DNA of 64,000 nt. It comes from an uncultured Erythrobacter sp. (GTDB taxonomy: Bacteria > Pseudomonadota > Alphaproteobacteria > Sphingomonadales > Sphingomonadaceae). The notes below the pieces were generated by a model. It did no database searches. It worked only from the letters and a program-made list of their open reading frames with translations, and was not told the origin of the DNA. The position numbers and the translations under genes were made by a program. Each line of letters opens with the position of its first letter. The first letter of the stretch is position 1. Shown here one piece after another: positions 46,263 to 62,071 of the stretch. The stretch lies in NCBI RefSeq assembly GCF_947499705.1, contig NZ_CANMPJ010000001.1, forward strand, positions 841,501-905,500, written 5' to 3'.

Positions 46263-47522
46263 ATGCGGCGTGTGGTTGTAACCGGGCTTGGCCTCGTCAC
46301 TCCTCTTGGCGGGGACGTCGAAACCAGCTGGAAAAACCTGATTGCAGGCGAAAGCGGTGCCGGACAGATCACCCGCTTCGATACCGAGGGGCAGAAATGC
46401 ACCATTGCTTGCGAAGTGAAGGGCAAGGACCATCCCTGGGGCTTCGACGCTGACAAGCGCGTCGATCACAAGGTTCAGCGCCAAGTTGATCCATTCATCG
46501 TGTACGGCATCGATGCCGCCGGACAGGCGCTCGAGCACGCCGGTCTGACCGACATGACCGACGCGGAGAAAGAGCGCACCGGTTGCTCGATCGGCGCAGG
46601 TATCGGCGGTCTTCCTGGGATCGAGAGTGAAAGCATCGTGCTGCATGAGCGCGGGCCAACCCGCGTTTCGCCGCACTTTGTGCATGGCCGCCTGATCAAC
46701 CTCGTCACCGGACAGGTGCAGATCAAATACGGATTCATGGGGCCGAACCACGCTGTCGTGACCGCGTGTTCCACCGGCGCGCACTCGATCGGCGATGCCG
46801 CACGTATGATCGCGATGGACGATGCCGACGTGATGTTGGCGGGCGGGGCGGAAAGCACCATCAATCCGCTCGGGATCGCAGGTTTCGCTCAGGCGCGCGC
46901 TCTCAACATGAGCATGAATGACCGCCCGATCGAGGCGAGCCGTCCCTATGACAGGGACCGTGACGGCTTTGTGATGGGCGAGGGCGCCGGTGTCGTCGTT
47001 TTGGAAGAGTATGAGCGGGCGAAGGCACGCGGAGCAACAATCTATGCTGAAGTGACCGGATATGGCCTTTCGGGCGATGCTTACCACGTCACAGCCCCGC
47101 ACCCCGAAGGCAAGGGCGCTGAACTGGCAATGCGAATGGCGCTCAAGAAAGCGGGCCTCGGCCCCGGCGATATCGATTACGTCAACGCGCACGGTACCTC
47201 GACAATGGCCGATACGATTGAGCTTGCTGCGGTAAAGCGTGTGCTGGGCGATGATCTCGGCGGAGCGTCCATGAGCTCGACCAAGTCGGCAATCGGGCAC
47301 TTGCTTGGCGGTGCTGGCGCGGTCGAGGCCGTGTTCTGCGTTCTCGCCATGCGCGACGGTGTTGTTCCGCCTACACTCAATCTTCGCAATCCCGACGAAG
47401 GCACTGAAGGTATTGACTTAGTCCCACTAAAGGCGAGGCAGCGTGACGTCCGCGCAGTCCTCAATAACAGCTTCGGTTTCGGGGGTACCAACGCCTCTGT
47501 AATCATGCAGAAGATCGATTGA
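46263..47522 (+). CDS. fabF: 3-oxoacyl-[ACP] synthase II
   Basis: This 419-residue condensing enzyme has Cys in VVTACSTGAHSIGDA, His in NAHGTSTMADTIE and His in KSAIGHLLGGAGAVEA, the full Cys-His-His triad. It elongates acyl-ACP, including unsaturated chains. It follows acpP after a hairpin and precedes mltG by four bases. Confidence 0.98.
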   Translation: MRRVVVTGLGLVTPLGGDVETSWKNLIAGESGAGQITRFDTEGQKCTIACEVKGKDHPWGFDADKRVDHKVQRQVDPFIVYGIDAAGQALEHAGLTDMTDAEKERTGCSIGAGIGGLPGIESESIVLHERGPTRVSPHFVHGRLINLVTGQVQIKYGFMGPNHAVVTACSTGAHSIGDAARMIAMDDADVMLAGGAESTINPLGIAGFAQARALNMSMNDRPIEASRPYDRDRDGFVMGEGAGVVVLEEYERAKARGATIYAEVTGYGLSGDAYHVTAPHPEGKGAELAMRMALKKAGLGPGDIDYVNAHGTSTMADTIELAAVKRVLGDDLGGASMSSTKSAIGHLLGGAGAVEAVFCVLAMRDGVVPPTLNLRNPDEGTEGIDLVPLKARQRDVRAVLNNSFGFGGTNASVIMQKID

Positions 47523-47526
47523 TCGG

Positions 47527-48495
47527 ATGAAGAAGCTCGGTCTTGTCGCCGGGTTGGTGATCGCCGCGTTTGTCGCGGTGGGCGTCTATTTGGGCAGCAC
47601 CATGCTGGGCGGCGCGACCGTAAAGGTCGAATCCAGCTTTGTGATCCCTGCCGGAGCTTCCGTAAGCGCAGTTGCGCAAAAGCTTGAAGACGAAGGGCAT
47701 ATCATTTCGGCAGACGGCTTTGTGCTGCGGGCCAAGCTGCTGGGCTCTTCCGACCCCATCCAGGCTGGCGAGTTCAAGCTTGCTCCCGGAATGTCGCAGG
47801 CGCAGATCCTGCAAGCTTTCCAATCGGGCGATGTGATCCGCCGCTTCATCACCATTCCTGAAGGCATGCCATCGATCATGGTTCAGGAAAGATTGATGGC
47901 AGAAGAGTTGCTTACGGGCGATATTGAAGCCCCTCTCGAGGGTTCGATCCTGCCCGATACCTATGCCTTCGAACGCGGGCAAAGCCGGGCTTCACTGATC
48001 GAGCAGATGCAACTGGCGATGGACAAATACCTCGCTGAAGCATGGGCTGAGCGCGGACCTGATATCGCCGTGGAGACCATGCGCGATGCGCTCATCCTGG
48101 CGTCGGTAGTAGAGAAAGAAACCGGCAAGCCGTCAGAGCGCCGGATGGTGGCCGGTCTCTATTCGAACCGCGTGAAGACGGGCATGCTACTTCAGGCCGA
48201 TCCGACGATCATCTACCCTATCACAAAGGGCAAGCCACTCGGGCGCCGCATTCGCCAATCGGAGATAGCCGCGGTCAACGGTTACAACACCTACACCCGC
48301 GTCGGCTTGCCAGAGGGTCCGATCACCAATCCGGGGCGCGAGAGCATCGCCGCGGTGCTCAACCCCGAAACGACCAGCGCACTGTTCATGGTCGCCGATG
48401 GCACTGGCGGGCACATGTTCGCCGACACACTGGCCGAGCACAACGCCAACGTTGAAAAGTGGTACGCCATCCGCCGTGAGCGCGGTGAAATGTGA
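47527..48495 (+). CDS. mltG: Endolytic murein transglycosylase MltG
   Basis: This 322-residue protein has one N-terminal membrane helix, a LysM-like region and the YceG core: LEGSILPDTYAF, the catalytic Glu in ILASVVEKETGKPSERRMVAGLYSNR and LQADPTIIYPITKG, then PITNPGRESIAAVLNP. It cuts nascent glycan strands at the membrane. The last seven codons are repeated 99 bases downstream in the same frame. Confidence 0.96.
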   Translation: MKKLGLVAGLVIAAFVAVGVYLGSTMLGGATVKVESSFVIPAGASVSAVAQKLEDEGHIISADGFVLRAKLLGSSDPIQAGEFKLAPGMSQAQILQAFQSGDVIRRFITIPEGMPSIMVQERLMAEELLTGDIEAPLEGSILPDTYAFERGQSRASLIEQMQLAMDKYLAEAWAERGPDIAVETMRDALILASVVEKETGKPSERRMVAGLYSNRVKTGMLLQADPTIIYPITKGKPLGRRIRQSEIAAVNGYNTYTRVGLPEGPITNPGRESIAAVLNPETTSALFMVADGTGGHMFADTLAEHNANVEKWYAIRRERGEM

Positions 48496-48592
48496 ACAGG
48501 ACAACTGGGAATGGAAATGTGCCAACGCGCTGACAATGCTCGACGGTCCTCGGCGAACTACAAACAAGGACGCCGTGAGCGCGGTGAAATGT
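48472..48592 (+). repeat. 22-base direct repeat flanking a 77-base insert
   Basis: The last 22 bases of mltG (48472-48493) are repeated exactly at 48571-48592, 99 bases apart and therefore in the same reading frame. Copy one ends in TGA, copy two in TAG. This suggests a tandem duplication or insertion at the 3' end of mltG, with the older stop being TAG at copy two. Confidence 0.75.
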
Positions 48593-48605
48593 AGGCCGAC
48601 CGTAA

Positions 48606-49124
48606 GTGGCCAATCCCTTTATCGTGACGGCCAAGCTGCCCCCCGACATACAGGGCTGGGCAGAAGGCCTGCGCCGCGCGAATTACCCGGCAGAGCGCAA
48701 CCACCTGCATGCGCATGTCACCATGTTCCATTCCTTCGCACCTTCTTTGCTTGAGGAACTCAAAGACTATCTTCCGCGCATAGCCGCCGAATTCGCCGCG
48801 CCTGAGGCGGATGTGACCGGATTGCTTGATCTCGGCAGCGGCACCGCAATCGCGCTCGCCAGCCCGCAGTTGCTGAGCCTGCGCGCAATGATTGCGGAGC
48901 ACTTCCACGGCAGCCTGACGGCGCAGGACCTCTACGAGCCGCGTCCGCATATCACGATCCAGAACAAGGTTACCAAGCGTGAAGCGCGCGCGTTGCAAGC
49001 GGAACTGGCGCCAACGATCGAGGAACGACGCTTCATATTTCCCGCCCTGGAGCTGCACCTCTACAAGGGCGGGCCATGGGATTTGGTCAAGGCCTGTGCG
49101 TTCAGAGGCAAAGAACGGCTCTGA
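48606..49124 (+). CDS. 2'-5' RNA ligase/2H phosphoesterase family protein
   Basis: This 172-residue protein has two HxT motifs, HAHVTMF and RPHITIQNKV, spaced as in 2H phosphoesterases. These hydrolyse or ligate 2',3'- or 2'-5' phosphodiester bonds in RNA or nucleotides. GTG 48606 is used; there is only a weak Shine-Dalgarno. It follows mltG. Confidence 0.85.
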   Translation: MANPFIVTAKLPPDIQGWAEGLRRANYPAERNHLHAHVTMFHSFAPSLLEELKDYLPRIAAEFAAPEADVTGLLDLGSGTAIALASPQLLSLRAMIAEHFHGSLTAQDLYEPRPHITIQNKVTKREARALQAELAPTIEERRFIFPALELHLYKGGPWDLVKACAFRGKERL

Positions 49125-49211
49125 CCGTTGCAACAATGGTTGACCGCCTGCGCATGCGGCCCTAAATGCGCCGCTCGCTTGAGGCCCATGTGCCTCGCGA
49201 ATCCCTATTGG

Positions 49212-49288
49212 GGCGGAGTAGCTCAGGTGGTTAGAGCAGCGGAATCATAATCCGCGTGTCGGGGGTTCAAGTCCCTCCTCCGCTACCA
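49212..49288 (+). tRNA. tRNA-Met (CAT), elongator type
   Basis: The acceptor arms GGCGGAG and CTCCGCT pair with one terminal G-U. The anticodon arm GCGGA-ATCATAA-TCCGC reads CAT. The T arm is GGGGG-TTCAAGT-CCCTC, and CCA is encoded. The anticodon stem lacks the three G-C pairs of the initiator, so elongator tRNA-Met is preferred over initiator; tRNA-Ile2 (lysidine) cannot be fully excluded. It borders the genomic island. Confidence 0.93.
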
Positions 49289-49472
49289 TTAAACCCTTTG
49301 AAAACTTGATATTTTTCAATTCCAACAGGGATTAGGGCGAAATTGCCTTGTTGCATGATGTTGCGCTGTTTTCCGGCGATATTCGCGGTTTCCCAATAGA
49401 TTCCGGCTGGTCCGTGCAACATATCTGCGACATACTCCGCCGGGGTCTCGGAGGCATATTGCGAGGTTGAGA

Positions 49473-50015
49473 ATGGTCGAAAGCCAACCCTACGTTGAGC
49501 GTGCCCTATTCATTGTGGGCGAGCCGGATTCTGGCAAGAGTTCGCAGTTGCGTAGCATGTTTCGCGATTGGCGATTTGGCACTGAGGGTAAGATACCAGG
49601 TGCTCGGAAAATCCAAGAGAGATACTGGCTCTCAGATACTAGGGCGGTTTATCTACGTATGACCTCGCCTCACGAATATTATGAGAGCCTTGACGAGTTC
49701 CTCGACAAGACAGCTGCAAAGTTCACGGCTGGCAACCGGTGGAATTTTGCCAGTCCTCTGCAACCATATGCGGCGCGAAAGATCGGCAACGCCGACGAGG
49801 TAATTGGAGCCTTTGTGAAACGCTTCCGCCCAGAGCGTGTCAGAATTGTTATTCTCGACCCTCGTTGGAGTGAAGGAAGCAGGAAGCGTTCAGAGCTGCA
49901 AAAGCTAGTGGATGGATTTCGCAAGATCGGCAAGAATGTCGAGGTTCTCATTTGCGATGCCAGAACAAAGACCGGCAATGGCCTGATCTATGCAGATTTC
50001 TTCGACTTCACCTGA
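49473..50015 (+). CDS. P-loop NTPase-like protein of unknown function
   Basis: This 180-residue protein has a Walker A in VGEPDSGKSSQLRSMF (about 17-32) and a Walker B-like strand RVRIVILDPRW (near 120-130). GAGG lies before ATG 49473. The family is not recognised. It sits between tRNA-Met and hsdM, in the position where defence accessory genes are often found. It is too short for a complete AAA or STAND protein. Confidence 0.65.
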   Translation: MVESQPYVERALFIVGEPDSGKSSQLRSMFRDWRFGTEGKIPGARKIQERYWLSDTRAVYLRMTSPHEYYESLDEFLDKTAAKFTAGNRWNFASPLQPYAARKIGNADEVIGAFVKRFRPERVRIVILDPRWSEGSRKRSELQKLVDGFRKIGKNVEVLICDARTKTGNGLIYADFFDFT

Positions 50016-50100
50016 TTTCCTCAAGGAGGGAACAATCGAATTTCCCTATTGATTTAGGAAAATAATTGGCGGCTGGGCGGGGGCGCGCTAGCAGTCCGGC

Positions 50101-51552
50101 ATGTTCGAAAACGCCTTCAACAACATCGACCGTGCCCTTCGCAATGATGAGGGGCTGGCTTCCGAATTGGACTATGCCGAGCAGACAAGCTGGCTGCTAT
50201 TCCTGAAATACCTTGCCGATCTGGAGCAGGAGCGGGAGGACGAGGCCGCGCTTGAGGGTAAGGATTACCAGCCGATCCTCGATCCCCAACATCGTTGGGC
50301 AAGCTGGGCCGCGCCTAAGGATGAGCAAGGCGAGCCAGATCACAACGCTGCGCAGACCGGGCAAGACCTGATCGATTTCGTCAACGGCAAGCTGTTTCCG
50401 TATCTGAAGACCTTTCAGGCTGAGGGCACCGATGCCGATACGCTCGAATACAAGATCGGGCAGATATTCGCGGAGATCACCAACCGCTTCCGATCAGGCT
50501 ATTCGCTCAGGGAAGTGATCGACATCGTCGATACGCTCGATTTCGGCAGCACACAGGCCAAGCACGAGCTTTCCGATCTCTATGAAGTCCGCATCAAGCG
50601 CATGGGCAATGCGGGGCGCAATGGCGGGGAGTATTACACGCCGCGCGCGCTGATCCGGGCGATGATCAAGGTGGTCGATCCCAAGATTGGCGAGAGCATC
50701 TATGATGGCGCTTGCGGGTCGGCTGGCTTCCTGTGCGAAGCGTGGGACATGATGCGGCGCGATGATCTGTCGTCTGCCGAATGGGACACGCTCCAGCGCA
50801 AGACGTTTTACGGGCAGGAGAAGAAGTCGCTCGCCTATGTGCTGGGCGTGATGAATATGATCCTGCACGGGATCGAAACGCCAGCCGTGCGGCACACCAA
50901 TACGCTCGCGGAAAACGTGTTGGATATTCAGGAGGCTGACCGGCACGATATTGTTCTGGCCAATCCCCCCTTTGGCGGGGGCGAGCGCAAGGAAGTGCAG
51001 CAAAACTTCCCGATCAAATCGGGCGAGACCGCCTATCTGTTCCTGCAGCATTTCATCCGCAAGCTTAAAGCAGGCGGACGCGGGGCGGTGGTTATCAAGA
51101 ACACCTTCCTGAGCAACACCGACAACGCCAGCGTCGAACTGCGCAAGGAATTGCTGGCGAGCTGTAATCTGCACACCGTGCTCGATTGTCCCGGCGGCAC
51201 GTTTCAGGGTGCTGGGGTGAAGACGGTGGTGCTGTTTTTCGAGAAAGGCGCGCCCACGCGAAAGGTCTGGTATTACCAGCTCGATCCGGGGCGCTCGCTG
51301 GGCAAGACCAATCCGCTGAATGATGACGATCTGGCCGAGTTTGTCGCGCTCCAGCCGAACAAGGCGGATAGCGAGAAAAGCTGGAGCGTTGCAGTCGAGG
51401 CGCTGGATCAAGACACCTTCGACCTGTCGGTTCGCAATCCGAATGCGCCGGAGGAAGCGCCCTTGCGTGAACCGGCGGAGATTATCGAGGCGATGCTGGC
51501 GCGCGATGCCGAGACCGCGCAGATACTCGAAGATATTCGGGGGATGCTGTGA
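50101..51552 (+). CDS. hsdM: Type I restriction-modification methyltransferase subunit
   Basis: This 483-residue N6-adenine methyltransferase has the SAM site DGACGSAGFL and catalytic NPPF (288-291), with an N-terminal helical HsdM domain (MFENAFNNIDRALRN). The stop overlaps the GTG start of hsdS (GTGA), a coupling typical of hsd operons. Confidence 0.96.
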   Translation: MFENAFNNIDRALRNDEGLASELDYAEQTSWLLFLKYLADLEQEREDEAALEGKDYQPILDPQHRWASWAAPKDEQGEPDHNAAQTGQDLIDFVNGKLFPYLKTFQAEGTDADTLEYKIGQIFAEITNRFRSGYSLREVIDIVDTLDFGSTQAKHELSDLYEVRIKRMGNAGRNGGEYYTPRALIRAMIKVVDPKIGESIYDGACGSAGFLCEAWDMMRRDDLSSAEWDTLQRKTFYGQEKKSLAYVLGVMNMILHGIETPAVRHTNTLAENVLDIQEADRHDIVLANPPFGGGERKEVQQNFPIKSGETAYLFLQHFIRKLKAGGRGAVVIKNTFLSNTDNASVELRKELLASCNLHTVLDCPGGTFQGAGVKTVVLFFEKGAPTRKVWYYQLDPGRSLGKTNPLNDDDLAEFVALQPNKADSEKSWSVAVEALDQDTFDLSVRNPNAPEEAPLREPAEIIEAMLARDAETAQILEDIRGML

Positions 51553-52676
51553 GGGGCGGCATTTTTGGCAACGTCAAGTTGGGACAGGTTGCTTCAGTCA
51601 ATTATGGCTATACGGAAAGCGCATCCTCCGAAGCTATTGGTCCGAAGTTTCTACGCATCACCGACATTCAGGACGGCAATGTTGACTGGACAGCGGTGCC
51701 CTACTGCGAAATCGACCAACGAGATTTTGACAAGCACAAGCTTGAAGCTGGCGATATTGTTTTTGCTCGGACGGGAGCAACAACCGGCAAGAGCTTTTTG
51801 ATTCAAGAACCCCCCGCGAGCGTTCCAGCGTCTTACCTTATAAGGCTTCGGATTACCGACAATGAGTTGTCGCCTGACTATTTGGCTCTGTTTTTTCAAA
51901 CCTCTGCATACTGGGAAGCAATAAAGCAGGGTTCATCGGGAAGCGCGCAAGGCGGCTTCAATGCTTCAAAGCTGAAGGAACTCGAAGTTCCACTCCCGCC
52001 GCTGGAGGAGCAGAAGCGGATTGTTGCGGTGCTGGATCAGGCTTTCGCCGCCCTCGACCGCGCCCGCGCCAACGCCGAGGCCAATCTGGCAGATGCGGAG
52101 GAGTTGTTCGAGCGGGAGTTGTCTGCATCATTTGCCAAGGCGTCGAGTTCATCGAAGTTTCTGCCCTTTTCGAAGCTTTGTAAGCCATTGACACCAAAAA
52201 CTAAGATCAAACGGAAAGACTATCTGGCAGAAGGCAATCATCCGATAGTCTCTCAAGAAGCAGACCTGATTTCCGGTTATTGGAATGATGGCAAAGCCCT
52301 TATGAGATTGAATGAACCGGTCGTCGTGTTTGGCGACCACACCCGGTGTTTGAAATATGTCGATTTCGATTTCGTCGTGGGAGCTGATGGAACGAAGGTC
52401 CTCAAGCCGGGTGAGGGAGTAGACGCATCGTATTTATACTACGGGCTGCGAAGCATCCCTATTGCGGAGAAGGGATACGCTCGACACTTTCGGTTCCTCA
52501 AGGAAGGCACATTGCCCGATTTGGAGGAAGATCAACAAAGAGAACTTGCCAATCATTTGCGAGATATAGAATCGCAAGCTCTTCAGCTGGCCGATCACTA
52601 TGAAGCCAAGGTTCAAGACCTCGATGACCTCCGCCAATCCATACTGCAAAAGGCCTTTGCCGGGGAGCTGACCTGA
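51549..52676 (+). CDS. hsdS: Type I restriction-modification specificity subunit
   Basis: This 375-residue protein has two target-recognition domains. The first ends in PLPPLEEQKRIVAVLDQAFAALDRARANAEANL, the central coiled coil. The second (starting near SKFLPFSKLCKPL) ends in a matching segment EEDQQRELANHL...LRQSILQKAFAGEL. It determines the bipartite DNA site. GTG 51549 overlaps hsdM. Its TRDs are the fastest-changing part of such loci. Confidence 0.93.
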   Translation: MRGGIFGNVKLGQVASVNYGYTESASSEAIGPKFLRITDIQDGNVDWTAVPYCEIDQRDFDKHKLEAGDIVFARTGATTGKSFLIQEPPASVPASYLIRLRITDNELSPDYLALFFQTSAYWEAIKQGSSGSAQGGFNASKLKELEVPLPPLEEQKRIVAVLDQAFAALDRARANAEANLADAEELFERELSASFAKASSSSKFLPFSKLCKPLTPKTKIKRKDYLAEGNHPIVSQEADLISGYWNDGKALMRLNEPVVVFGDHTRCLKYVDFDFVVGADGTKVLKPGEGVDASYLYYGLRSIPIAEKGYARHFRFLKEGTLPDLEEDQQRELANHLRDIESQALQLADHYEAKVQDLDDLRQSILQKAFAGELT

Positions 52677-52679
52677 TCG

Positions 52680-52748
52680 ATGAGCAGTCTTGACCACGAA
52701 ACCGAAGCCGATACCCGCGCCAACCGCATCGATCCGGTGCCAGCATGA
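52680..52748 (+). pseudogene. Truncated duplicate of the hsdR 5' end (22-codon frame)
   Basis: Starting three bases after the hsdS stop, this frame reads MSSLDHETEADTRANRIDPVPA then TGA. The real hsdR at 53222 begins MANLDHETEADTRANRIDPV. Over 60 bases the two differ at nine positions; only two residues change, and the later differences are all silent. The TGA overlaps the ATG of the next gene by four bases (ATGA), so this remnant may now act as a translational coupler. It marks the original hsdS-hsdR junction. Confidence 0.85.
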
Positions 52749-53212
52749 GCGTACCATTCCGTCATTCAGCAGCGTTCGGCAAGCGCATCGAATATTATGT
52801 AGTCGGCTTGATGCTGAAGGAAGGCCTCGACGTTTACATGCCGCTGGTGGACGACGATGCCATTGATGCGGTGGTAAAGCGGCCGGACGGAAGCTTTGTC
52901 GAAATCCAGATCAAGGCACGCTCGAAGGACGTCAAGTTCGGAAGCGCTGGGCTGTTTGCCGCCTTGACCCACGCGTATCGGCCCAATTACTGGTTCGTAT
53001 TCTACTCAGAGCGGATGGACACGTTATGGATTATGTCATCGGCTGAATTTGTCCGTGAGGCTGCGCAGAACAAGTCAGGTAAAAATGAGGGCAAGCGTTC
53101 GATCTGGTTCAACGGGAAGAACACGAAGGCAAAGACCGAGCATACGAAGCCGCAATTCGAGAAATATGTCGTAAGCAGTTTCAGCCGCATCCTGAACGAA
53201 AGCCCCGATTAG
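52745..53212 (+). CDS. PD-(D/E)XK nuclease-like protein nested in hsdR
   Basis: This 155-residue protein has Glu16 in FGKRIEYYVVG, an acidic turn VDDDAIDAVV (35-44) and EIQIKA (53-58). The order of a helical Glu, Asp, then E-x-Q-x-K, is that of PD-(D/E)XK endonuclease-like folds. The C-terminal half is basic. No Shine-Dalgarno precedes ATG 52745; it depends on coupling with the 22-codon frame. It may be a free-standing nuclease, an R-M accessory factor or a homing-type gene. Confidence 0.7.
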   Translation: MSVPFRHSAAFGKRIEYYVVGLMLKEGLDVYMPLVDDDAIDAVVKRPDGSFVEIQIKARSKDVKFGSAGLFAALTHAYRPNYWFVFYSERMDTLWIMSSAEFVREAAQNKSGKNEGKRSIWFNGKNTKAKTEHTKPQFEKYVVSSFSRILNESPD

Positions 53213-53221
53213 ATTTATCCC

Positions 53222-55567
53222 ATGGCCAACCTCGACCACGAAACCGAAGCTGACACCCGCGCCAATCGTATCGATCCGGTGCTGCGCGAGGCGGGCTGGG
53301 GCGAGGTTGATGGCTCCCAGATCAATCGCGAGAAAATCGCGCCGGGGCGAATCCTTGCAGGCGGCGAGCGCGCCAATCCTATGTCCGCCGATTACGTGCT
53401 GTCCTACAAGGGCCGCAAGCTGGCGGTCATCGAGGCCAAGCGGGCTGGGCTGGGCCACACCGATGGCGTAGGGCAGGCCAAGGAATATTCGCGGAGGCTG
53501 GAAGCGCGCTTTGCCTACTCCACCAACGGGCTTGGCTGGTATGGCATAGATATGAATACGGGAAAGGAAGGCGATTTCGATCTGCCCTTTCCCGGTCCGC
53601 AAGATCTTTGGAATCGATGTTTTCCTGAGGGCAATGACTGGCGCGAACGCTTTGGCTCGGTGCCTTTCAGCACGGGCGGCGGCAAGTGGCAGCCGCGATA
53701 CTACCAGCACAACGCCATTACAGCCGTTCTGGAGGCCATAGCGCAGGAAAAGCGGCGCATCCTGCTCACACTCGCCACAGGCACCGGAAAGACCTCTATC
53801 GCCTTCCAAATCGCTTGGAAGCTATTTCAGTCGAAGTGGAACCTCTCAGGCGAGCCGACACGCCGCCCACGCATCCTGTTTCTGGCGGACCGCAACATTC
53901 TCGCCGATCAGGCCTATAACAGCTTCAACGCCTTTCCAGCCGATGCCTTGATGCGGATTGATCCCGAAGAAGTTCGCAAACGCGGCGGGGTGCCGACGAA
54001 CGCCAATATCTTCTTCACAATCTTCCAGACCTTTATGACAAGCGGGAAGGACGGGGAAACCGAGTTCACCTTTGAAGGCTATGCGCCCGATTTCTTCGAT
54101 TTCATTGTGATCGATGAATGCCATCGTGGCGGCGCGCGGGATGAAAGCACGTGGCGTGAAATCCTGAATTACTTTGAGCCAGCCGTGCAGCTTGGCCTGA
54201 CCGCTACGCCCAAGCGCGATGTTAATGCGGATACCTACGGCTATTTCGGAGAGCCGGTTTACACCTATGCACTGAAAGAAGGGATCGGCGATGGCTTCCT
54301 GACCCCGTTCAAGGTGCGCCAGATGGCGAGCACCTTGGACAGCTACACCTTCAGTGATGATGATGAGGTTCTGAGCGGGGAAATCGATCCTGATAAAGAA
54401 TATAGGGAAGCGGATTTCAACACGCGGCTGGTGATCGACGAGCGCGAGAAAAGCCGTGTGCAGGAGTTCATGGATCAGATCGACCAGCGCCAGAAGACGC
54501 TCGTTTTCTGTGCGACACAGGATCACGCGGCCCGGGTGCGCAATTTCATCAATCAGCTGAAGGACAATCCCGATCCGCATTATTGCGAGCGGGTCACGGC
54601 GGATGATGGCAAGCTGGGCGAGCAACACCTTCGCGAGTTTCAGGATAACGAGAAGACGCTACCAACGATCCTGACGACCTCTCAGAAGCTCTCAACCGGG
54701 GTGGACGCACGCAACATCCGCAACATCGTGCTCTTGCGTCCGGTGAAGTCCATGATCGAGTTCAAGCAGATTATCGGGCGGGGAACCCGGACCTTCGACG
54801 GGAAGGACTTCTTCACCGTCTATGACTTCGTGAAGGCCTATGAGCACTTCAACGATCCGGAATGGGATGGCGAGCCGCTGCCGCCGGATGGACCGAGCGG
54901 ACCGAAACCGCCAGTACCGCCAACGCCTGAGCCTCCGGATGATGCCGATGATCCAGCCGACCCGAAAGGGCCGACCGAAAAGATCGTCGTGAAACTGGCG
55001 GACGGGAAAGAGCGCAAGATCAGCTATGTCGGCAACACGCTCTACATGCTCAACGGCAGGCCGATCAGCGGTGCTGAGTTTATGGAGCACCTGTTCGGTG
55101 ATCTGGCCGGTCTGGTTGCCGATGAGGACCAGTTACGGGCGATCTGGAGCGATCCTGAAAGCAGGAAAGGCTTCCTCCAGCGGCTTGATGAGATGGGCTA
55201 CGATAGCGAGCGTATGGACGATATGTGCCGCCTGATCGATGCGCCGCGATCCGACATTTTTGACGTGCTGGCCTATATTCGCTTCACCTTAGCGCCTCTC
55301 GCCCGGTCAGAGAGGGTGGAGGCGGCTAAAACTGCTGGAATGGATGGCTATGAAGAGGAAATGCGCGAGTTCCTTAGCTACGTCCTCCAGTCTTATGAAA
55401 TGCAGGGTATTCGCGAGTTGGACCCCGGCAAACTCGGTGACTTCCTCCGCATCCGATATGGCGGCATGAACGACGCGAAGCGCAAGCTCGGATCGGTCGA
55501 AGAGATACGCGGCGCGTTCTTCGATATTCAAAAGCACCTATTTCAACAGGACGCTTCACGGGGATAG
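53222..55567 (+). CDS. hsdR: Type I restriction endonuclease subunit
   Basis: This 781-residue protein has an N-terminal nuclease with Asp57, E71-A-K73 and QxxxY (85-89). Two RecA-like motor domains follow: Walker A LATGTGKT (184-191), DECH (298-301), TATPKRD and QIIGRGTRT. A Pro-rich linker and an EcoEI-type C-terminal domain come next. It cuts DNA after translocation when the site is unmethylated. It looks intact in spite of the insertion just before it; no Shine-Dalgarno is visible. Confidence 0.94.
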   Translation: MANLDHETEADTRANRIDPVLREAGWGEVDGSQINREKIAPGRILAGGERANPMSADYVLSYKGRKLAVIEAKRAGLGHTDGVGQAKEYSRRLEARFAYSTNGLGWYGIDMNTGKEGDFDLPFPGPQDLWNRCFPEGNDWRERFGSVPFSTGGGKWQPRYYQHNAITAVLEAIAQEKRRILLTLATGTGKTSIAFQIAWKLFQSKWNLSGEPTRRPRILFLADRNILADQAYNSFNAFPADALMRIDPEEVRKRGGVPTNANIFFTIFQTFMTSGKDGETEFTFEGYAPDFFDFIVIDECHRGGARDESTWREILNYFEPAVQLGLTATPKRDVNADTYGYFGEPVYTYALKEGIGDGFLTPFKVRQMASTLDSYTFSDDDEVLSGEIDPDKEYREADFNTRLVIDEREKSRVQEFMDQIDQRQKTLVFCATQDHAARVRNFINQLKDNPDPHYCERVTADDGKLGEQHLREFQDNEKTLPTILTTSQKLSTGVDARNIRNIVLLRPVKSMIEFKQIIGRGTRTFDGKDFFTVYDFVKAYEHFNDPEWDGEPLPPDGPSGPKPPVPPTPEPPDDADDPADPKGPTEKIVVKLADGKERKISYVGNTLYMLNGRPISGAEFMEHLFGDLAGLVADEDQLRAIWSDPESRKGFLQRLDEMGYDSERMDDMCRLIDAPRSDIFDVLAYIRFTLAPLARSERVEAAKTAGMDGYEEEMREFLSYVLQSYEMQGIRELDPGKLGDFLRIRYGGMNDAKRKLGSVEEIRGAFFDIQKHLFQQDASRG

Positions 55568-55612
55568 CTCCGGTCGATTCACAAGCCTGTGTTGGAAGGC
55601 TATAGCACCGGT

Positions 55613-56245
55613 ATGGGCGGATTTGGTTCAGGACGGCGCTTTGGCGATCCGGTCGCAGAGGAAGCGCTGCGCATCGATATCGCGTGGATGGTGCGGACAA
55701 AGCGTGCGGTACCTGGTTCGGAAGTTTGGGGCAGTCTTAGCTGGACGTGCGGCGGTGAGCCTTCCGGCAATATCAATTACACTTGCGACATGACCGATCT
55801 GGAGAATGCAATTCTGGAGCTGCGCTTCAAAGTGACCCGCCGTTCGACCGGGCAATCGACTGATCACGTTCAATGCATTCAACTGAGCTATACGGAGCCT
55901 AATTTCGGCGGAAAACGCTGGTGGATGCATTGCCCCAGAATGGGGGAGCGTGTCGGCAAGCTCTATTGCCCGGCTGGTGCTGAGTTGTTCGCCAGTCGCA
56001 AGGCCTACAGCATCGGATACCGCTCACAGCGCATCACTAGACGCGATGCGGTATTCGAGCGCCTGTTTCGTATCCAAAAGAAGCTAGGGTGTGAGGAGGG
56101 TTGGGGAAACTGGATCACCCGACCGAAGGGGATGCATCACCGGACCTTTGAGCGCTATCTTGATGAGTATGAGTATCTGGACGGGCTTTGTGCAGTTGAG
56201 ATGATGCAGGTGATCGGTATCTTGCAAGCCATGGAGAAGCGGTGA
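55613..56245 (+). CDS. GGFGSGR-family protein, zinc-knuckle residues lost
   Basis: About 210 residues. MGGFGSGRRFG, DIAWMVRTKRAVPGS, GGKRWWMHCPRMGERVGKLYCP and YSIGYRSQR match a family common in alphaproteobacteria. In the usual family the segment after the LYLP-like strand is FACRxCxxLxY; here it reads FASRKAYSIGY, so both Cys are gone, although other Cys (HCP, LYCP) remain. Its function is unknown. ATG 55613 matches the usual start; GTG 55589 would add eight residues. Confidence 0.7.
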   Translation: MGGFGSGRRFGDPVAEEALRIDIAWMVRTKRAVPGSEVWGSLSWTCGGEPSGNINYTCDMTDLENAILELRFKVTRRSTGQSTDHVQCIQLSYTEPNFGGKRWWMHCPRMGERVGKLYCPAGAELFASRKAYSIGYRSQRITRRDAVFERLFRIQKKLGCEEGWGNWITRPKGMHHRTFERYLDEYEYLDGLCAVEMMQVIGILQAMEKR

Positions 56246-56736
56246 GGCGACAGAAATCGTCAAAAATTTTTCGCGGCATTTGGCCCCATTTTTTATCTCA
56301 ATTCATGGAGTTCTCGACCCCAACTCCACATCGTCGACCGTATGTAGCCTGTTGTAGCGCACTTCGCATGCCTCTGGCGCGTCTCACTCACTTGTAGACT
56401 AGTCCTATATGAACCTTGGTGAGACCAGAGCGAAAAGGGCATAGGACAACTACCCCTGCCTCTGGATGCGAATACGCGATCCGATAGCAAGGGCAGTCCG
56501 GCCACTTTGCGCTCTAATCGGAGAGGTATGAACCTCGGAGCCGACCGTCGCTTAAGGGCACTTCTGGTCGTTAGGTCGCCAGATGCTTGGCAGTTGCTTT
56601 CGGGGCTGTCCTAAACCCCGCCGGTCGCCCCTCTGCCTTTCGGACTGGGCTTCCCAATTTGACCGGACCCCTTCTGGTATTGGGATACTGCCTGGCCGCC
56701 AGAGTATTGAGCCAACTCAGCCAGACAGGAAACGGC
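56246..56736. other. Gene-free stretch inside the island
   Basis: No convincing gene is seen. A TATGAACCT motif occurs twice (near 56408 and 56527), each followed at the same distance by GGGCA, which suggests an old, partly decayed repeat. It is probably the remains of former genes or the control region of the reverse-strand HTH gene. Confidence 0.35.
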
Positions 56737-56916
56737 TTAAGCGTTTGAGCAAAATGCCGCTTCGAGTTCGGAGCGCCGAAAATACATCGAGCGCCCTTTG
56801 CGGATGACAGGCAAGTGACCCTGCTCAACCAAGTGATAAACTTGGCGCTGCGTGATCATTCCACCCGTCTCTTGTTCGACGGCTTTTGCACCTTTGAGCA
56901 GGTCTTCAGCAAGCAT
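56737..56916 (-). CDS. Small excisionase-like helix-turn-helix protein
   Basis: This 59-residue protein (MLAEDLLKGAKAVEQETG...) has MITQRQVYHLVEQGHLPVIRKGR followed by MYFRRSELEAAF, the layout of MerR/excisionase-type winged HTH domains (AlpA/Xis). ATG 56916 follows AAAGGAAG. It lies back to back with the genes leading to the integrase and is a candidate excision factor of the island. Confidence 0.75.
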   Translation of the reverse strand: MLAEDLLKGAKAVEQETGGMITQRQVYHLVEQGHLPVIRKGRSMYFRRSELEAAFCSNA

Positions 56917-57031
56917 CGTTCTTCCTTTGTGCACAGATAGATACAGGTATAACCAAAATGACCTTTACAGTTGCACTCTCTCCGCGCAAGAGGATAGGGC
57001 TACACCCGTATCCAAAGGTGGGGAAAACTGG

Positions 57032-57658
57032 GTGAAATTGAGTTATGGGCAACTGGAGGCGATATTGGCGGCCTATCTTGAGGTTCATCCCGATAAGCGT
57101 TCAACCTTCCGTTCGAGAATGAAGCAGCTTCAGAGGCTAGAATTTCCGAAGGGTGTGAATATCGGGCGAGGCGTCAGAATGACATATACAGCCGAACATC
57201 TTCTCCAGCTCGCCGTGGCATTCGAGATCATCGGGACGGGGCTGGCTGCGAAGGCTGCGACCGATCTTGTGGCGGAGTATTGGGAGCGATTCCAAGCAGC
57301 CTTTGGTCGGGCCTACTCTAGACTGGGCTACAACACAGACTTTGAGACTTTTGTCTGTGTCGCGGGGCAGCCGCCAGTGCCACCCCAAGCTCGGAGCGAC
57401 TTTTTTGTTTCAGTGCACGACCTGACTTCGCTGACTGAGCAAGTTCTCTGCTTCCCTCGACCGGACGCGGTTTCGAGGGCCGGAATGCAGATAATTCGTG
57501 CAGACTACTTGCTGGAGCGGGTCAACCGGCTTGCTCGCGACGTTGGTCAGGTTGGTCGCCCCAAATGGGCTCCTGAGTATCGAACGTGGGCGAGGAAGCG
57601 CGACGAAGATCAAAAGCTATGGGACCACGCCGATGGTGGCCCGCCGATCCCGTTCTAG
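57032..57658 (+). CDS. Unknown protein upstream of the integrase
   Basis: This 208-residue protein starts at GTG 57032. It begins VKLSYGQLEAILAAYLEVHPDKRSTFRSRM (in parts), probably an HTH-like helical domain, then MTYTAEHLLQLAVAFEIIGTGLAAK. No signal or membrane segment is seen. It lies nine bases before the integrase gene on the same strand, so it may regulate it. The family is not recognised. Confidence 0.6.
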   Translation: MKLSYGQLEAILAAYLEVHPDKRSTFRSRMKQLQRLEFPKGVNIGRGVRMTYTAEHLLQLAVAFEIIGTGLAAKAATDLVAEYWERFQAAFGRAYSRLGYNTDFETFVCVAGQPPVPPQARSDFFVSVHDLTSLTEQVLCFPRPDAVSRAGMQIIRADYLLERVNRLARDVGQVGRPKWAPEYRTWARKRDEDQKLWDHADGGPPIPF

Positions 57659-57667
57659 GAGACCCAA

Positions 57668-58831
57668 ATGACAGCTATCCGTAAGCGTGAGTGGTTATCT
57701 CCCAAAGGCCAGAAGAAGACCGCTTGGTTGGTCGATTACAAAGACCAACACGGTAAGCGACGGGCGCGGCAATTCCCGACTAAGAAAGAGGCGGAAGCCT
57801 ATTCTGATCGAGCGAGGGATGAGATCAGGCAGGGTAGGCATACCCATGATCGGGACAGCATCACGGTGGCTGTTGCCGCTGATCTGTGGATTGCGGCTAG
57901 TGACGCCGAGGGGCTGGAGCGGAGCACAATCAAGCGGTATCGCGAGTTGGCGAAGCTGCATATTGCTCCAAAATTTGGAGAACTGAAGCTGTCGCAGCTT
58001 TCAAAGGCCCAAGTGGTCGAATGGCGGCAGGAGTTGTTGATCGAGAAGTCCCGTTCGATGGCAAGCAAAATCATCCGGGCGCTGTCCGCAATCCTAAACA
58101 ATGCGATGGAGATTGGCGCGATCAGCCAGAATGTCGCATCGGATGTGAAAGTCGGAAGGGCAAAGCGTGAAGCTGCGCGGGTCGAGCCGCCAGCGCGGAC
58201 AGACCTGAAGAAGATGATCGAGGCGGCAACTGACAATGAGCGCCCGTTTTTACTGACCGCTATCACCATGGGACTTCGCTCATCTGAGCTGCGCGGGCTG
58301 TGCTGGCGCGATGTTGACCTGAAGGTGGGGACGCTGACTGTTCGCCAGCGGGCCGATGAATGGGGCGTTCTCGGCCCGCCAAAAAGCGAGGCAGGACGGC
58401 GGACAATTCCGATGCCACCTCAACTGGTTGCAGAGCTGACTAGGTGGAAACTGCGCTGCAGACCCAGCCATAAAGGGCTTGTCTTTCCCAGCGTTGTAGG
58501 AACTCCACTAAGGCACAATAACGTTCTGCGGCGGCTCTACTTCCCATTGCAGGTTAGGGCAGGGCTGGGAGTGCCCAAGCTGAACAAGAGTGGCCAGCCC
58601 ATCATCGATAATGAGGGCAATCCGGTTCTCACCGGGAAATACCGGTTTCACGCTCTACGTCACGCGGCTGCGAGCGGCTGGATTGCGAGCAAGATTGATT
58701 TGAAGCGTCTACAGGTTTGGATTGGTCACGAGAGCATTCAGCTAACGCTCGACACCTATGGGCATTTGCTGGCTGATCAGGAACGCGACGCCGAGTTGGC
58801 TATGCTCGCCAGCCGAGATTTGTTCGCCTGA
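57668..58831 (+). CDS. Tyrosine recombinase (phage-type integrase)
   Basis: This 387-residue protein has an N-terminal AP2-like arm-binding region (WLVDYKDQHGKRRARQF), a core-binding SAM-like domain and a catalytic domain with Arg204, H328-A-L-R331-H, His354 in GHESI and nucleophile Tyr364 in DTYGHLL. It probably moves the island. It points away from tRNA-Met, unlike the usual int-next-to-tRNA layout. Confidence 0.93.
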   Translation: MTAIRKREWLSPKGQKKTAWLVDYKDQHGKRRARQFPTKKEAEAYSDRARDEIRQGRHTHDRDSITVAVAADLWIAASDAEGLERSTIKRYRELAKLHIAPKFGELKLSQLSKAQVVEWRQELLIEKSRSMASKIIRALSAILNNAMEIGAISQNVASDVKVGRAKREAARVEPPARTDLKKMIEAATDNERPFLLTAITMGLRSSELRGLCWRDVDLKVGTLTVRQRADEWGVLGPPKSEAGRRTIPMPPQLVAELTRWKLRCRPSHKGLVFPSVVGTPLRHNNVLRRLYFPLQVRAGLGVPKLNKSGQPIIDNEGNPVLTGKYRFHALRHAAASGWIASKIDLKRLQVWIGHESIQLTLDTYGHLLADQERDAELAMLASRDLFA

Positions 58832-59071
58832 AAGGCGACTGACCGCTAACGACCCAGAAACGGACGTTCAGTAAGGACGCATTGGACACTGCCTTGTGAA
58901 TTTGCTCCGAGTGCTCAACATCCCTGTGTCGTACCCCTCCATTCCAAGCAGCCATTCACGCAGCCTTTCCTGTCTTGTAAAAATGGCCACCAAATTCATA
59001 TTTCACTTTTAAGAACTTGACTCCTTGGTCTCAGTATTGATGCTGGCTCTCGAAAACAGGGGTTTTCACTT
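58832..59071. other. Intergenic region between integrase and RHS genes
   Basis: No gene and no copy of the tRNA-Met 3' end are seen. It is AT-rich near 58978-59040, with a TTGACT that may belong to the promoter of the 59072 gene. Confidence 0.35.
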
Positions 59072-59668
59072 ATGAGTCGCAAGCATTTTGTGGCAGGCTT
59101 AGTGCTTGCCTCTCTTCCAATTACTCTAGCCCACGGGCAGGCGAGCACAAAGACGTATACTTACGACGAACTTGGTCGATTGATTAAGGTCGAGGTTGCC
59201 AATGGCTCGCAAAATGGCGAGCAGCGCGACTATGCATATGACAGGTCCGACAATCGAACGCAGGTGAATTCTACCGGAGCAGATGGCGGAACACCGTCAT
59301 CGTCTTGCGCGCTGAGTTCAGTTGGATGGACTACTGTGCAGGGTTCTTACGGCATCGCGCGTGTTTTTCCGCCAACGCCCGCTGGCTGCGGATTTCCGGT
59401 AGAATTGAGCGCCACGATTACAGTCGAAAGTGGCCAGATATCAGGCCCAGAGCTCACTGCGATCCAAGACTCAGTCTTGTGGATCGGCGGCGATACTTTG
59501 CAGTCCACTGATTTCGCCAAGTCGATGGCCTTTGGGCCAGCTGCGACTGACGTGAGTACTCCAGATGACTACGTTCTGAAGGTAACTTGGAGCACAACAA
59601 CCAGCAATGTGACCTTTGATACGCCGGGGCCGGCATTTGCGCTCGTCACCGTAACACCGGAACCGTAA
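59072..59668 (+). CDS. Secreted protein with a single YD-repeat pair
   Basis: This 198-residue protein has a signal peptide ending in LAHGQ. TYTYDELGRLIKVEVANG and DYAYDRSDNRTQVN are RHS/YD repeats. A beta-rich domain rich in Ser/Thr follows (SVGWTTVQGS...). It is a short YD protein, perhaps a fragment or an accessory of the large RHS proteins downstream. Confidence 0.75.
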   Translation: MSRKHFVAGLVLASLPITLAHGQASTKTYTYDELGRLIKVEVANGSQNGEQRDYAYDRSDNRTQVNSTGADGGTPSSSCALSSVGWTTVQGSYGIARVFPPTPAGCGFPVELSATITVESGQISGPELTAIQDSVLWIGGDTLQSTDFAKSMAFGPAATDVSTPDDYVLKVTWSTTTSNVTFDTPGPAFALVTVTPEP

Positions 59669-59689
59669 CGCCGAATTAGGGAGGCCGAA

Positions 59690-60088
59690 ATGCCTGGAAA
59701 TCTAACAACCTCGATCTCGGCTTCGGCATTGGTCTGCTCCGTCGTTCTTGGCGTCGGGTCCGCAACCGTTGCGAGCGCACAGGACGACGGCGCAAACGGT
59801 CAAGGTCAGAATTCATCATACGTCTGCATGGTCCGAGATGGGCCAGACGCAGACGGTGCGAGTGTGACCCGTATCAAGGTTCCTCTGGCTGAGGAGCAAT
59901 GGCTTACAGGTAGGGGCTTTCGCCGCTCCAGCTGTGACAAAGCAGAGACTTGGCTGCGCACGATGCGGCCTTCGATGTGCGCGGTTTCAGAAGTTGGTGA
60001 TCCAGCGTTCGAATCAGAAGTGAGGAATTGGCACGGCCTCTCGCCCGCTGAAATCTGCGATCTGGCCGCTAAGCTTCCAGGCGGTTGA
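59690..60088 (+). CDS. Small secreted hypothetical protein
   Basis: This 132-residue protein has a signal peptide (cut after VASAQ, about residue 31) and several Cys residues (YVCMVRDG, SSCDKAE, MCAVSE, EICDLA). GTGTGAGACCC-like GC-rich context is ordinary; no domain is recognised. It lies between the two YD/RHS genes on the same strand and may be an accessory or immunity-type protein, but there is no direct evidence. Confidence 0.6.
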   Translation: MPGNLTTSISASALVCSVVLGVGSATVASAQDDGANGQGQNSSYVCMVRDGPDADGASVTRIKVPLAEEQWLTGRGFRRSSCDKAETWLRTMRPSMCAVSEVGDPAFESEVRNWHGLSPAEICDLAAKLPGG

Positions 60089-60133
60089 TAACCACTTCAC
60101 GAGCCTCCGTTTCAGGTTGAACAATCACCGGGT

Positions 60134-62071
60134 ATGCAAATGAACATCAGTGTTTCCAAGTCTGCTCTCGTCTCCGTCTCGACGGTTGCATTGCTCATGC
60201 ATACCGCTGTGTCACTCGCTCAGGATGCACCACCGCCGCCCGAGCAAGATACCGAGTCATCGACCGGGGTGAGCCTAGTTTCCGGCGGCTATTCAACCAG
60301 CGCAACTGACGTATCGATTGGTCAAGGTGAGTTTCCGCAAGCGCTCACTTTGAGCCGGGAATACTCAAGCAGCATGCACAAGACGCATGGCACTAATGAT
60401 GGGATTCTAAGCTGGGGATGGTCCACCAATCTTACGATGTACATCACAGTAGGCGAGCTCGGAGGGGGCGACTATCCACCTGATGAACCAGTAATCGATA
60501 ACGAGCGCTACCCTTGGCGATACGGGATTGCCCAAGGCACCAGCACGCTGGCTTCGTTTGTCGAACTCGATCCCAACTCACCCATAGATCCACATGTGGG
60601 GCCAAATTACGAAGGGCCGTTCGGCGTCTGGGGCGATCCCTTTCCGGGCTCATTGGTGCGAACGGGTAACGAGCTGATCTTCACCGCCATCAATGGTACG
60701 AAGCACATCTTCGAAGAGGGAAGTCAGCAGATTTTGCGGGACAATAGTCCTGCTTTCAGAACGCGGCTCGAAGCAAAAGACGGTACGGTATTGACCTTTC
60801 ACGGCAAGCGGGGTGCCGACGCCGTCTTCAGCAATCGAGGAATTGCCATTCTTTTTGAGTTCGACCCGAATGTCACGACACAGCTGGGTCCTACTGATCC
60901 CGCTTTTCCCATCCTTTGGACGAAGTCATGCGCCGTCAACCTGGTTGAACACTATGTAACCCCGACATCGAGTTGCCCTGCGGGCGTTCCGTCTGTTTCA
61001 TACCAGCATAGTACGCTGCCGAACGGTTTCCGAGTCTTGGCCAGCGTGACCGATCAGCTGAATAACCAAACGACCTATGAATACACTGCAGACGAGCAGC
61101 TCGAATGCGTCAAGCTACCCGGCCAGTCATCCTGTCAAATCTTCAACCATTACTCGAATTGCATGCCGATACCGAACGAGCCGACCAATTTTTCAATGAA
61201 CTCGTTTCAGCAGGTCTATCGCCAGGATCTGATCACCGGCGAATCTATCAACTATGATTTTGATACGTCGCGGTATTGCCCGCTCAAGCCGCCAGGTAGC
61301 GGCCCATATTCCGCACCTGAAAGTGCAGATGTCACGATGACCTATGCGGATGGTTCGACCAAGACCGTTCGTGCCTCTTACGAAGGTCTTCCGCGCAAGA
61401 TCACCGACGCACTCGGTCGTGAGACGACCATGATTCACGGCATCGAGAACTTTGCCAATCGCGAAATTCATCTCACTGAGGTTATCGCTGAAGAGGGCAA
61501 CAGTTGGAATTACGATTACCACGGCACTGGCCAGGTCACCAAAACAACCATTAAGCCCAAGTCAGGCTCTGGAAGCCAGGTTTGGGAAACGGTCTATGGC
61601 GGTGCGGATGTCTGCCACCAACCCACCGCACAGATCGATGCTGAAGGCAATCAGACCGACATCGTTTACGACACCACGCATTGCGGCATCCTCAAGCGGA
61701 CACTTCCCGCTGCCGCTCTAGGTAGTCCAAGGCCCGAGACGCGTTACACTTGGGCTCCGAAATACGCTTGGATCAAGAACTCAAGCGGAGGATTTTCGCA
61801 GGCTGTTGGTGAGGTCCAGGTGCTGGTTTCTGAGGAATTCTGCCGAACAAGCACCTACACCAATGGTGCCTGCGAAGCTGGCGCGGGCGATCTGGTCGTC
61901 ACCACCTACGAGTACCAGCAAGGCAACGCCACTAAAGGCAGCAACCTGTTTCGTGTTGGCATGGCAGTGAATGCCGACGGGCAAACGCTGCGGACCTGCT
62001 ACGGGCTTGACTATTTCGGGCGACAAATTTCCGAGACACAGCCCAAGGCTGGACTGGCGAGCTGTCAGTGA
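60134..62071 (+). CDS. RHS-type protein, N-terminal half with its own signal peptide
   Basis: This 645-residue protein has a signal peptide ending at VSLAQ, a proline-rich linker, then GYSTSATDVSIGQGEFPQALTLSREYSSS and WGWSTNLTMYI, the start of an RHS/DUF6531-like shell. A few YD-type motifs appear in the second half (TYEYTADEQLECV, TTYEYQQG, GLDYFGRQIS). It ends at TGA 62069-62071, overlapping the GTG of the next gene. The shell therefore seems to be divided between two polypeptides. ATG 60140 is an alternative start. Confidence 0.85.
   Translation: MQMNISVSKSALVSVSTVALLMHTAVSLAQDAPPPPEQDTESSTGVSLVSGGYSTSATDVSIGQGEFPQALTLSREYSSSMHKTHGTNDGILSWGWSTNLTMYITVGELGGGDYPPDEPVIDNERYPWRYGIAQGTSTLASFVELDPNSPIDPHVGPNYEGPFGVWGDPFPGSLVRTGNELIFTAINGTKHIFEEGSQQILRDNSPAFRTRLEAKDGTVLTFHGKRGADAVFSNRGIAILFEFDPNVTTQLGPTDPAFPILWTKSCAVNLVEHYVTPTSSCPAGVPSVSYQHSTLPNGFRVLASVTDQLNNQTTYEYTADEQLECVKLPGQSSCQIFNHYSNCMPIPNEPTNFSMNSFQQVYRQDLITGESINYDFDTSRYCPLKPPGSGPYSAPESADVTMTYADGSTKTVRASYEGLPRKITDALGRETTMIHGIENFANREIHLTEVIAEEGNSWNYDYHGTGQVTKTTIKPKSGSGSQVWETVYGGADVCHQPTAQIDAEGNQTDIVYDTTHCGILKRTLPAAALGSPRPETRYTWAPKYAWIKNSSGGFSQAVGEVQVLVSEEFCRTSTYTNGACEAGAGDLVVTTYEYQQGNATKGSNLFRVGMAVNADGQTLRTCYGLDYFGRQISETQPKAGLASCQ

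Follow-up and report, generated by a model that had tools for sequence, protein, structure and literature searches.

A second hsdR start beside an embedded nuclease-like gene in an uncultured Erythrobacter: probably the severed original start

How does a restriction gene come to have two starts? The question is raised by a 64,000-nucleotide stretch of the genome of an uncultured Erythrobacter sp. (assembly GCF_947499705.1, contig NZ_CANMPJ010000001.1, positions 841,501 to 905,500; the whole stretch is called the window below), which carries the type I restriction-modification genes hsdM, hsdS and hsdR. A copy of the first 20 codons of hsdR (the stub, positions 52680..52739 of the window, + strand) follows hsdS. 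Next comes X155 (52745..53212, + strand), the gene for a 155-residue predicted PD-(D/E)XK nuclease, and then the complete hsdR (53222..55567, + strand), whose beginning we call the live head. This order, pointed out in an earlier note on the window, is read directly in the sequence. We consider it moderately probable that the stub is the original hsdR start of the locus, severed when recombination with a related hsdS-X155-hsdR locus introduced a part of that locus carrying X155 together with a new hsdR start.

The first 20 codons of the stub and of the live head specify 18 common residues (codon 1 and codons 4-20), 17 of them in an unbroken run, and their DNA is identical at 51 of 60 bases (9 differ). 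Residues change in codons 2 and 3 only (S/A and S/N); all five changes in codons 4-20 (codons 4, 10, 11, 15 and 16) are silent. The pair is the longest direct repeat in window positions 47500-60000 (61 nt at 85%). An HsdR-head profile, built from 18 heads including the window's own live head, gives the stub a score of 37.5, which the interval did not reach in any of 1000 first-order randomisations. P0121, the HsdR found to be closest, begins with the same 20 residues as the stub.

Since the ETEADTRANRIDPV segment is highly conserved in HsdR of relatives, identity of residues alone is weak evidence, and it is the silent differences and the layout that carry the argument. Had the stub drifted freely after a duplication, five changes would all be silent with a p of about 0.0007-0.0019. 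Because all five differences in codons 4-20 are silent, both starts likely evolved as working hsdR starts, with different origins. A recent tandem duplication in the window was considered and is ruled out by the same silent differences; on both points, the shared run with silent changes and the exclusion of a simple recent duplication, the earlier note was right.

Which of the two starts is native can be judged from relatives in the order, where hsdR was detected at E<=1e-150 in 14 of 396 genomes, the window's included. None of the other 13 hsdR-bearing loci contains X155, and ten (L068, L070, L072-L075 and L077-L080) have an empty site, with hsdS joined to hsdR. No hsdR-head remnant was seen in the hsdS-hsdR gap of any of the 13. 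The search for empty sites advised by the earlier note thus found them in most related loci, and the ancient fixed layout that it had set against a mobile insertion is absent, as the arrangement occurs in 0 of these 13. In two genomes of the window's family (L069 and L071), hsdS and hsdR are separated by a common cargo frame 217 codons long (hsd strand, about 840-1490) in a gap free of hsdR remnants, and in L076 hsdS is extended C-terminally by about 200 residues and reaches hsdR (2-1501 on the hsd strand).

The stub also sits where a native start should sit. The window junction GAGCTGACC-TGA-TCG-ATG resembles that of relatives (e.g., GAGCTGACC-TGA-ACCG-ATG), with 3 bases from the hsdS stop to the stub start, 4 being typical of relatives. 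In ten of 14 relatives (the 13 order loci and the plasmid locus L045), the 42 bases of ETEADTRANRIDPV are closer to those of the stub than to those of the live head, in three cases by a single base. The closest are L073, L075 and L072, which match the stub at 41, 40 and 39 of the 42 bases and the live head at 37, 36 and 37. Because ten of the 13 related loci are empty and the stub is near to their layout and mostly to their sequence, the newcomers are likely X155 and the live head, and the stub is likely what remains of the old hsdR start.

X155 itself was found at full length in one of 396 genomes of the order and one of 385 genomes of the class (E<=1e-20), both being the window's own. Four further order genomes have short or distant matches, and no hsd genes were seen within about 1.5 kb of the X155 remnants of G171 and G273. 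Judged by this distribution of sequences, X155 is foreign to the window's order. Elsewhere it is widespread: there are 3728 homologues, and the 43 genome loci retrieved come from Bacteroidetes, Spirochaetes, Zixiibacteriota and other phyla. The order hsdS-X155-hsdR was found in 14 of the 43, some with extra cargo; L029 and L044 break off ahead of hsdR, in L016 the genes are ordered differently and the rest are without the layout. A second class sample of eight X155 genomes included two already counted (G776 and G780), added two (G1107 and G1166) and contained four without hsd genes in the fetched flanks. With the window, this makes 17 intervals having X155 inside the hsdS-hsdR gap. The idea that X155 is a mobile insert private to this locus fails on the recurrence of the layout in other phyla, and the same recurrence makes it likely that the imported unit was part of such a locus, made up of an hsdS tail, X155 and an hsdR head.

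The left edge of the insert is consistent with such a donor. The stub is the beginning of a 22-codon frame (52680-52748) which ends P-A-stop, its TGA sharing ATGA with the X155 start codon. The same ATGA is shared by the hsdS stop and the X155 start in six of the 16 X155 relatives listed (L002, L004, L008, L014, L029 and L031), and in the window's family the hsdS tails of L077-L079 end in PA- or AA-stop on the ATGA of hsdR. Since the stub frame ends like an hsdS tail, the donor was likely an hsdS-X155-hsdR locus, and we infer that the frame joins the head of the resident hsdR to the final codons of an hsdS from the donor, represented by CCAGCATGA (52740..52748, + strand).

Other sources of X155 were tried. 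A phage or plasmid origin was rejected on searches of phages (no match at E<=1e-5 among 50,697 records), viral contigs (none confirmed) and plasmids (one 61% match among 72,556 records at E<=1e-5, outside an hsd locus). A self-mobile insert with its own ends was rejected as well, as apart from the stub and the live head no repeat of at least 16 bases was found to flank X155 in window 47500-60000. The other repeats of that length found in the region are two direct pairs, of 22 bases near 48472 and of 16 bases near 57289, and a single inverted pair. The proposal in the earlier note of a mobile nuclease gene entering with a relative's hsdR start therefore holds in one part: import with a replacement start is the better supported by the rarity of X155, the empty sites and the nearness of the stub to relatives, and nothing shows that X155 moves itself.

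The history we propose would start from a resident hsdM-hsdS-hsdR with an empty gap, like that of ten of the 13 order relatives. The donor piece would have consisted of the last hsdS codons, X155 and an hsdR head. Its left end would have fused just past codon 20 of the resident hsdR without real homology, perhaps at a common GTG, and its right end would have crossed over homologously inside the first 82 or so hsdR codons. One-ended events of this kind generally go by the name of homology-facilitated illegitimate recombination. As the sequence now stands, hsdR is complete and the stub reads in frame to P-A-stop, with its TGA overlapping the X155 ATG. The old hsdR start would thus have become a translated leader, which may couple X155 to ribosomes coming off hsdS.

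The size of the imported tract can be gauged against genome G264 (L068, L131), which is the nearest hsd relative of the window and has no X155. The hsdM genes of the two are 87.9% identical in DNA over 1507 bases (91% in protein). In hsdS, 95% identity extends over 51990-52111 (122 bases) and 52617-52676 (60 bases), and the rest differs (34% protein identity). Past base 240 of hsdR, G264 is the best of eight relatives in each of four bins (81-88%), and over the first 120 bases it ranks last among the eight (62%). The live head, from codon 1 to about codon 82 (53222..53468, + strand, the end point being approximate), has an ancestry unlike that of G264, with which the remainder of hsdR agrees, and likely represents the right end of the import. 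On these similarities, the window and G264 likely share one backbone on either side of X155.

This common backbone favours a small one-ended import and argues against the strongest competing explanation, which the earlier note had also put forward and which reverses the roles: X155 and hsdR would be resident, and an incoming hsdM-hsdS with 20 hsdR codons would have left a foreign start in front of X155. Such an exchange of hsdMS would produce exactly the same end structure, and hsd genes recombine freely, as seen in the mosaic HsdR and the swapped head of G264. Nevertheless, whichever side of X155 is compared, G264 is the window's nearest relative: in hsdM, in the two hsdS stretches and in hsdR past base 240 (from about codon 82). 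A resident already bearing X155 is also less likely, because X155 is not otherwise found at full length in the order and class samples. We regard the exchange as possible but unlikely.

A profile search revealed further hsdR-head remnants in L036 (two), L042 and L031 (weak). In L036 one remnant of 31 codons lies before an SLFN_AlbA_2 gene, and a short one lies directly past X155 and is followed by an hsdS-tail remnant (hsdS-tail remnants were sought in one subset of loci). In L042 the remnant directly precedes a truncated X155. With the locus's own head left out of the profile, the scores were 77.2 (L036, long), 19.2 (L036, short), 26.8 (L042) and 25.7 (L031). Two remnants are weak on score alone: that of L031 at 19.1, reached by one of 300 random sequences, and the short one of L036 at 18.7. 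Noise for this profile is marked by a reverse-strand maximum of 15.5 and a chance match of 16.8 inside hsdR of L080. An hsdR-like stretch after a solo X155 in L013 scored 16.0, which is noise level, and was not counted. The remnants of L036 and L042 suggest recurring insertion beside hsdR heads.

Remnants were borne by four of the 17 intervals with X155. None was seen in the 16 intervals that contain cargo other than X155. In a one-sided Fisher test p is 0.058, rising to 0.125 when the weak remnant of L031 is dropped, so that a link of remnants to X155 is suggested and not significant; most of the X155 intervals in this count came from X155-directed searching. Excluded from the 16 were 20 empty intervals and L076, and L120 was included although its hsdS was undetected. 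The samples behind these intervals comprised 19 hsdR genomes (G1045 and G1142, in which the hsdR head is missing, were left out, and G813, locus L130, showed no hsdS), eight opened of 24 plasmid matches (L056 being without hsdS), three opened of 949 Escherichia coli records (L053 and L054 have hsdR ahead of hsdM) and five viral loci (L047 and L050 without an hsdR start).

Two of the remnant-bearing loci deserve description in their own right. The cargo pile-up of L036 (3574-10000) begins with a protein of 711 residues that weakly matches HSDR_N, X155, the short hsdR-head remnant and the hsdS-tail remnant, and continues with a 482-residue gene, the 31-codon hsdR-head remnant, the SLFN_AlbA_2 gene, short repeats seen by eye and hsdR. 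In L042 (3815-4070), X155 stops at about 48 residues and passes into a tail which, by eye, is like that of the SLFN_AlbA_2 gene of L036.

Several observations weigh against the import of X155 with a foreign hsdR head. Thirteen of the 17 X155 intervals have no remnant. The 31-codon remnant of L036 equals the live head of its locus at 91 of 93 bases, and the first 23 bases of the L042 remnant are identical to its live head; as these two are not recoded, they could be recent local duplications and not foreign heads. Among the three loci compared (the window, L036 and L042), recoding is seen in the window only. Which head is native was decided by 42-60 bases, the stub being short, and three of the 14 relatives (L068, L076 and L079) are nearer to the live head than to the stub, with L070 tied. 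The microhomology of three or four bases at the left join could be a matter of chance. The discordance of the hsdR head with G264 need not stem from an event in the window either, because the G264 head also stands apart from all seven of the remaining close relatives (56-71% over its first 240 bases); over bases 120-240, G264 (67%) is no farther from the window than are three other relatives (62-65%). A head swap in the G264 lineage accounts for at least part of the discordance. Furthermore, the similarity of HsdR proteins is a mosaic in which no single crossover point was found among the HsdR relatives, and no donor DNA locus combining a window-type X155 with a window-type hsdR head was obtained.

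The head of G264 is instructive for another reason: it shows that hsdR heads swap at the hsdS-hsdR junction even without X155. In L068, codons 1 to about 82 of hsdR are unlike those of the seven close relatives and lie between a closely related hsdS end and a closely related hsdR body, with no cargo gene.

One further explanation involves the protein itself. X155 has a PD-(D/E)XK fold, and the nearest structure is the homing endonuclease I-Ssp6803I (PDB 2ost). Its conserved residues are E16, D41, E53, Q55 and K57, of which D41, Q55 and K57 are invariant, so that both the fold and the active-site pattern expected of the PD-(D/E)XK superfamily are present. Against PF11645 (PDDEXK_5), X155 scores 22.1 bits, below the gathering cut-off of 26.1, and 33 of 40 members of the X155 alignment A1 match this family at E<=0.01. 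We therefore call X155, on its sequence, a relative of PF11645 and not a member. Among the sequences of solved structures in the PDB, nothing matched it below E 0.8.

It can be imagined that X155 is a free-standing endonuclease of homing type, which cuts the hsdR start of X155-less loci, so that repair from the donor would copy in X155 along with a resistant hsdR head, and one-sided repair would strand the old start. We find this improbable. The association of remnants with X155 is at p 0.058, or 0.125 once L031 is set aside, the larger part of the X155 intervals being remnant-free; the L031 remnant and the long L036 remnant precede an SLFN_AlbA_2 gene and not X155; and the remnants of L036 and L042 are not recoded relative to the live heads. 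The head swap in the G264 lineage took place without X155. Moreover, the fold class is also used by defence nucleases such as SPARDA DREN (PMC12205087). The wider form of the idea is very doubtful: X155 would found a family of homing-type nucleases aimed at restriction loci, driving itself and a resistant hsdR head, at times with passenger defence genes, into the hsdS-hsdR gap, the leftover starts being its footprints. If true, it would explain how embedded defence cargo accumulates while the restriction gene stays alive. It is hardly credible that the hsdR start was duplicated long ago inside a single genome, in tandem or as a target site, and that X155 entered between the drifting copies: the copies are 85% identical over 61 bases and the remnants of L036 and L042 match their live heads almost throughout or over a local stretch, as local duplication predicts, but in the window the five all-silent differences (p 0.0007-0.0019) mark both copies as working starts, and the stub equals L073 at 41 of 42 bases.

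The hsd operon begins with hsdM (50101..51552, + strand), a type I methyltransferase gene (N6_Mtase, 207.8 bits), whose end is overlapped by the GTG start of hsdS (51549..52676, + strand; Methylase_S, 63 bits). HsdR exceeds the cut-off of NF046051, the EcoAI/FtnUII family, with 777.3 against 550 bits, and hsdM and hsdS adjoin hsdR on one strand with overlapping genes, as in the EcoAI/FtnUII neighbourhood. By HsdR score and gene neighbourhood, the window system is classed as EcoAI/FtnUII-type restriction-modification. A tRNA-Met (49212-49288) lies on one side of the operon and the gene for a tyrosine recombinase (57668-58831) on the other, a setting like that of an integrated island; a copy of a tRNA-Met attachment site of at least 11 bases was looked for within window 56200-64000 and not found. 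An identical pair of 22-base direct repeats, 99 bases apart (window 48472-48592), lies at the end of and just past a gene which we take to be MltG-like.

X155 is met in other contexts too. In L018 (4231-7371) it is part of a DpnII-type operon consisting, by Pfam, of a D12 methylase, DpnII, X155 and an N6_N4 methylase; L024 (70-3734) resembles this operon by eye and has one more small gene past X155. The hsdS-hsdR gap of L005 (948-6253) contains two frames that by eye are ATPase-like, a UvrD-type helicase, X155 and a gene that by eye is RhuM-like; the ATPase-like frames with the helicase resemble Gabija. Because it is a widely spread nuclease-like family in type I and DpnII-type operons and is uncharacterised, X155 is a testable defence candidate. 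Judging from its sequence and context, it likely acts as an accessory to the type I system, a defence nuclease expressed together with it.

New defence systems are being found by way of genes embedded in restriction loci, and to our knowledge it has not been established how such genes get there. One such entry is likely recorded in the stub, including the join between resident and donor, the make-up of the donor and the survival of the host gene by means of a new start.

How does the window compare with known systems? It is like EcoAI/FtnUII systems (NF046051) in the run of hsdM, hsdS and hsdR and differs by having X155 and the hsdR-start stub in the gap. I-Ssp6803I (PDB 2ost) shares its fold with X155; no intron was seen around X155 and there is no meaningful PDB sequence match. 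The nuclease domain of SPARDA DREN ranks directly behind 2ost among the Foldseek matches of X155, and its catalytic D41, Q60 and K62 (PMC12205087) resemble the invariant D41, Q55 and K57 of X155. Unlike X155, which stands alone, DREN forms a single domain within a larger protein that partners an Argonaute.

The closest parallels are genes embedded between those of a complete restriction system, a position held by X155 in the window and in 16 other hsdS-X155-hsdR intervals. DarTG2 of the RptR island of E. coli is a defence gene between hsdS and hsdR, the gap being termed a potential recombination hotspot (PMC12255303), and TgvAB of the VPI-2 island of Vibrio cholerae and RloF of Campylobacter are defence genes embedded in this same gap (PMC11411939). 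All these resemble the window in having a foreign defence-type gene in the same type I gap. They differ in the cargo gene, and the portions of the sources consulted describe no leftover hsdR start or replaced head (PMC12255303, PMC11411939); the RptR island and TgvAB were tested for anti-phage activity, while X155 is known here from sequence. Among the matches listed in a literature search, no leftover hsdR start beside type I cargo was recognised from titles and the openings of abstracts. Embedding in type I loci is already known, and the hsdR-start remnants are the new detail that the window adds to it.

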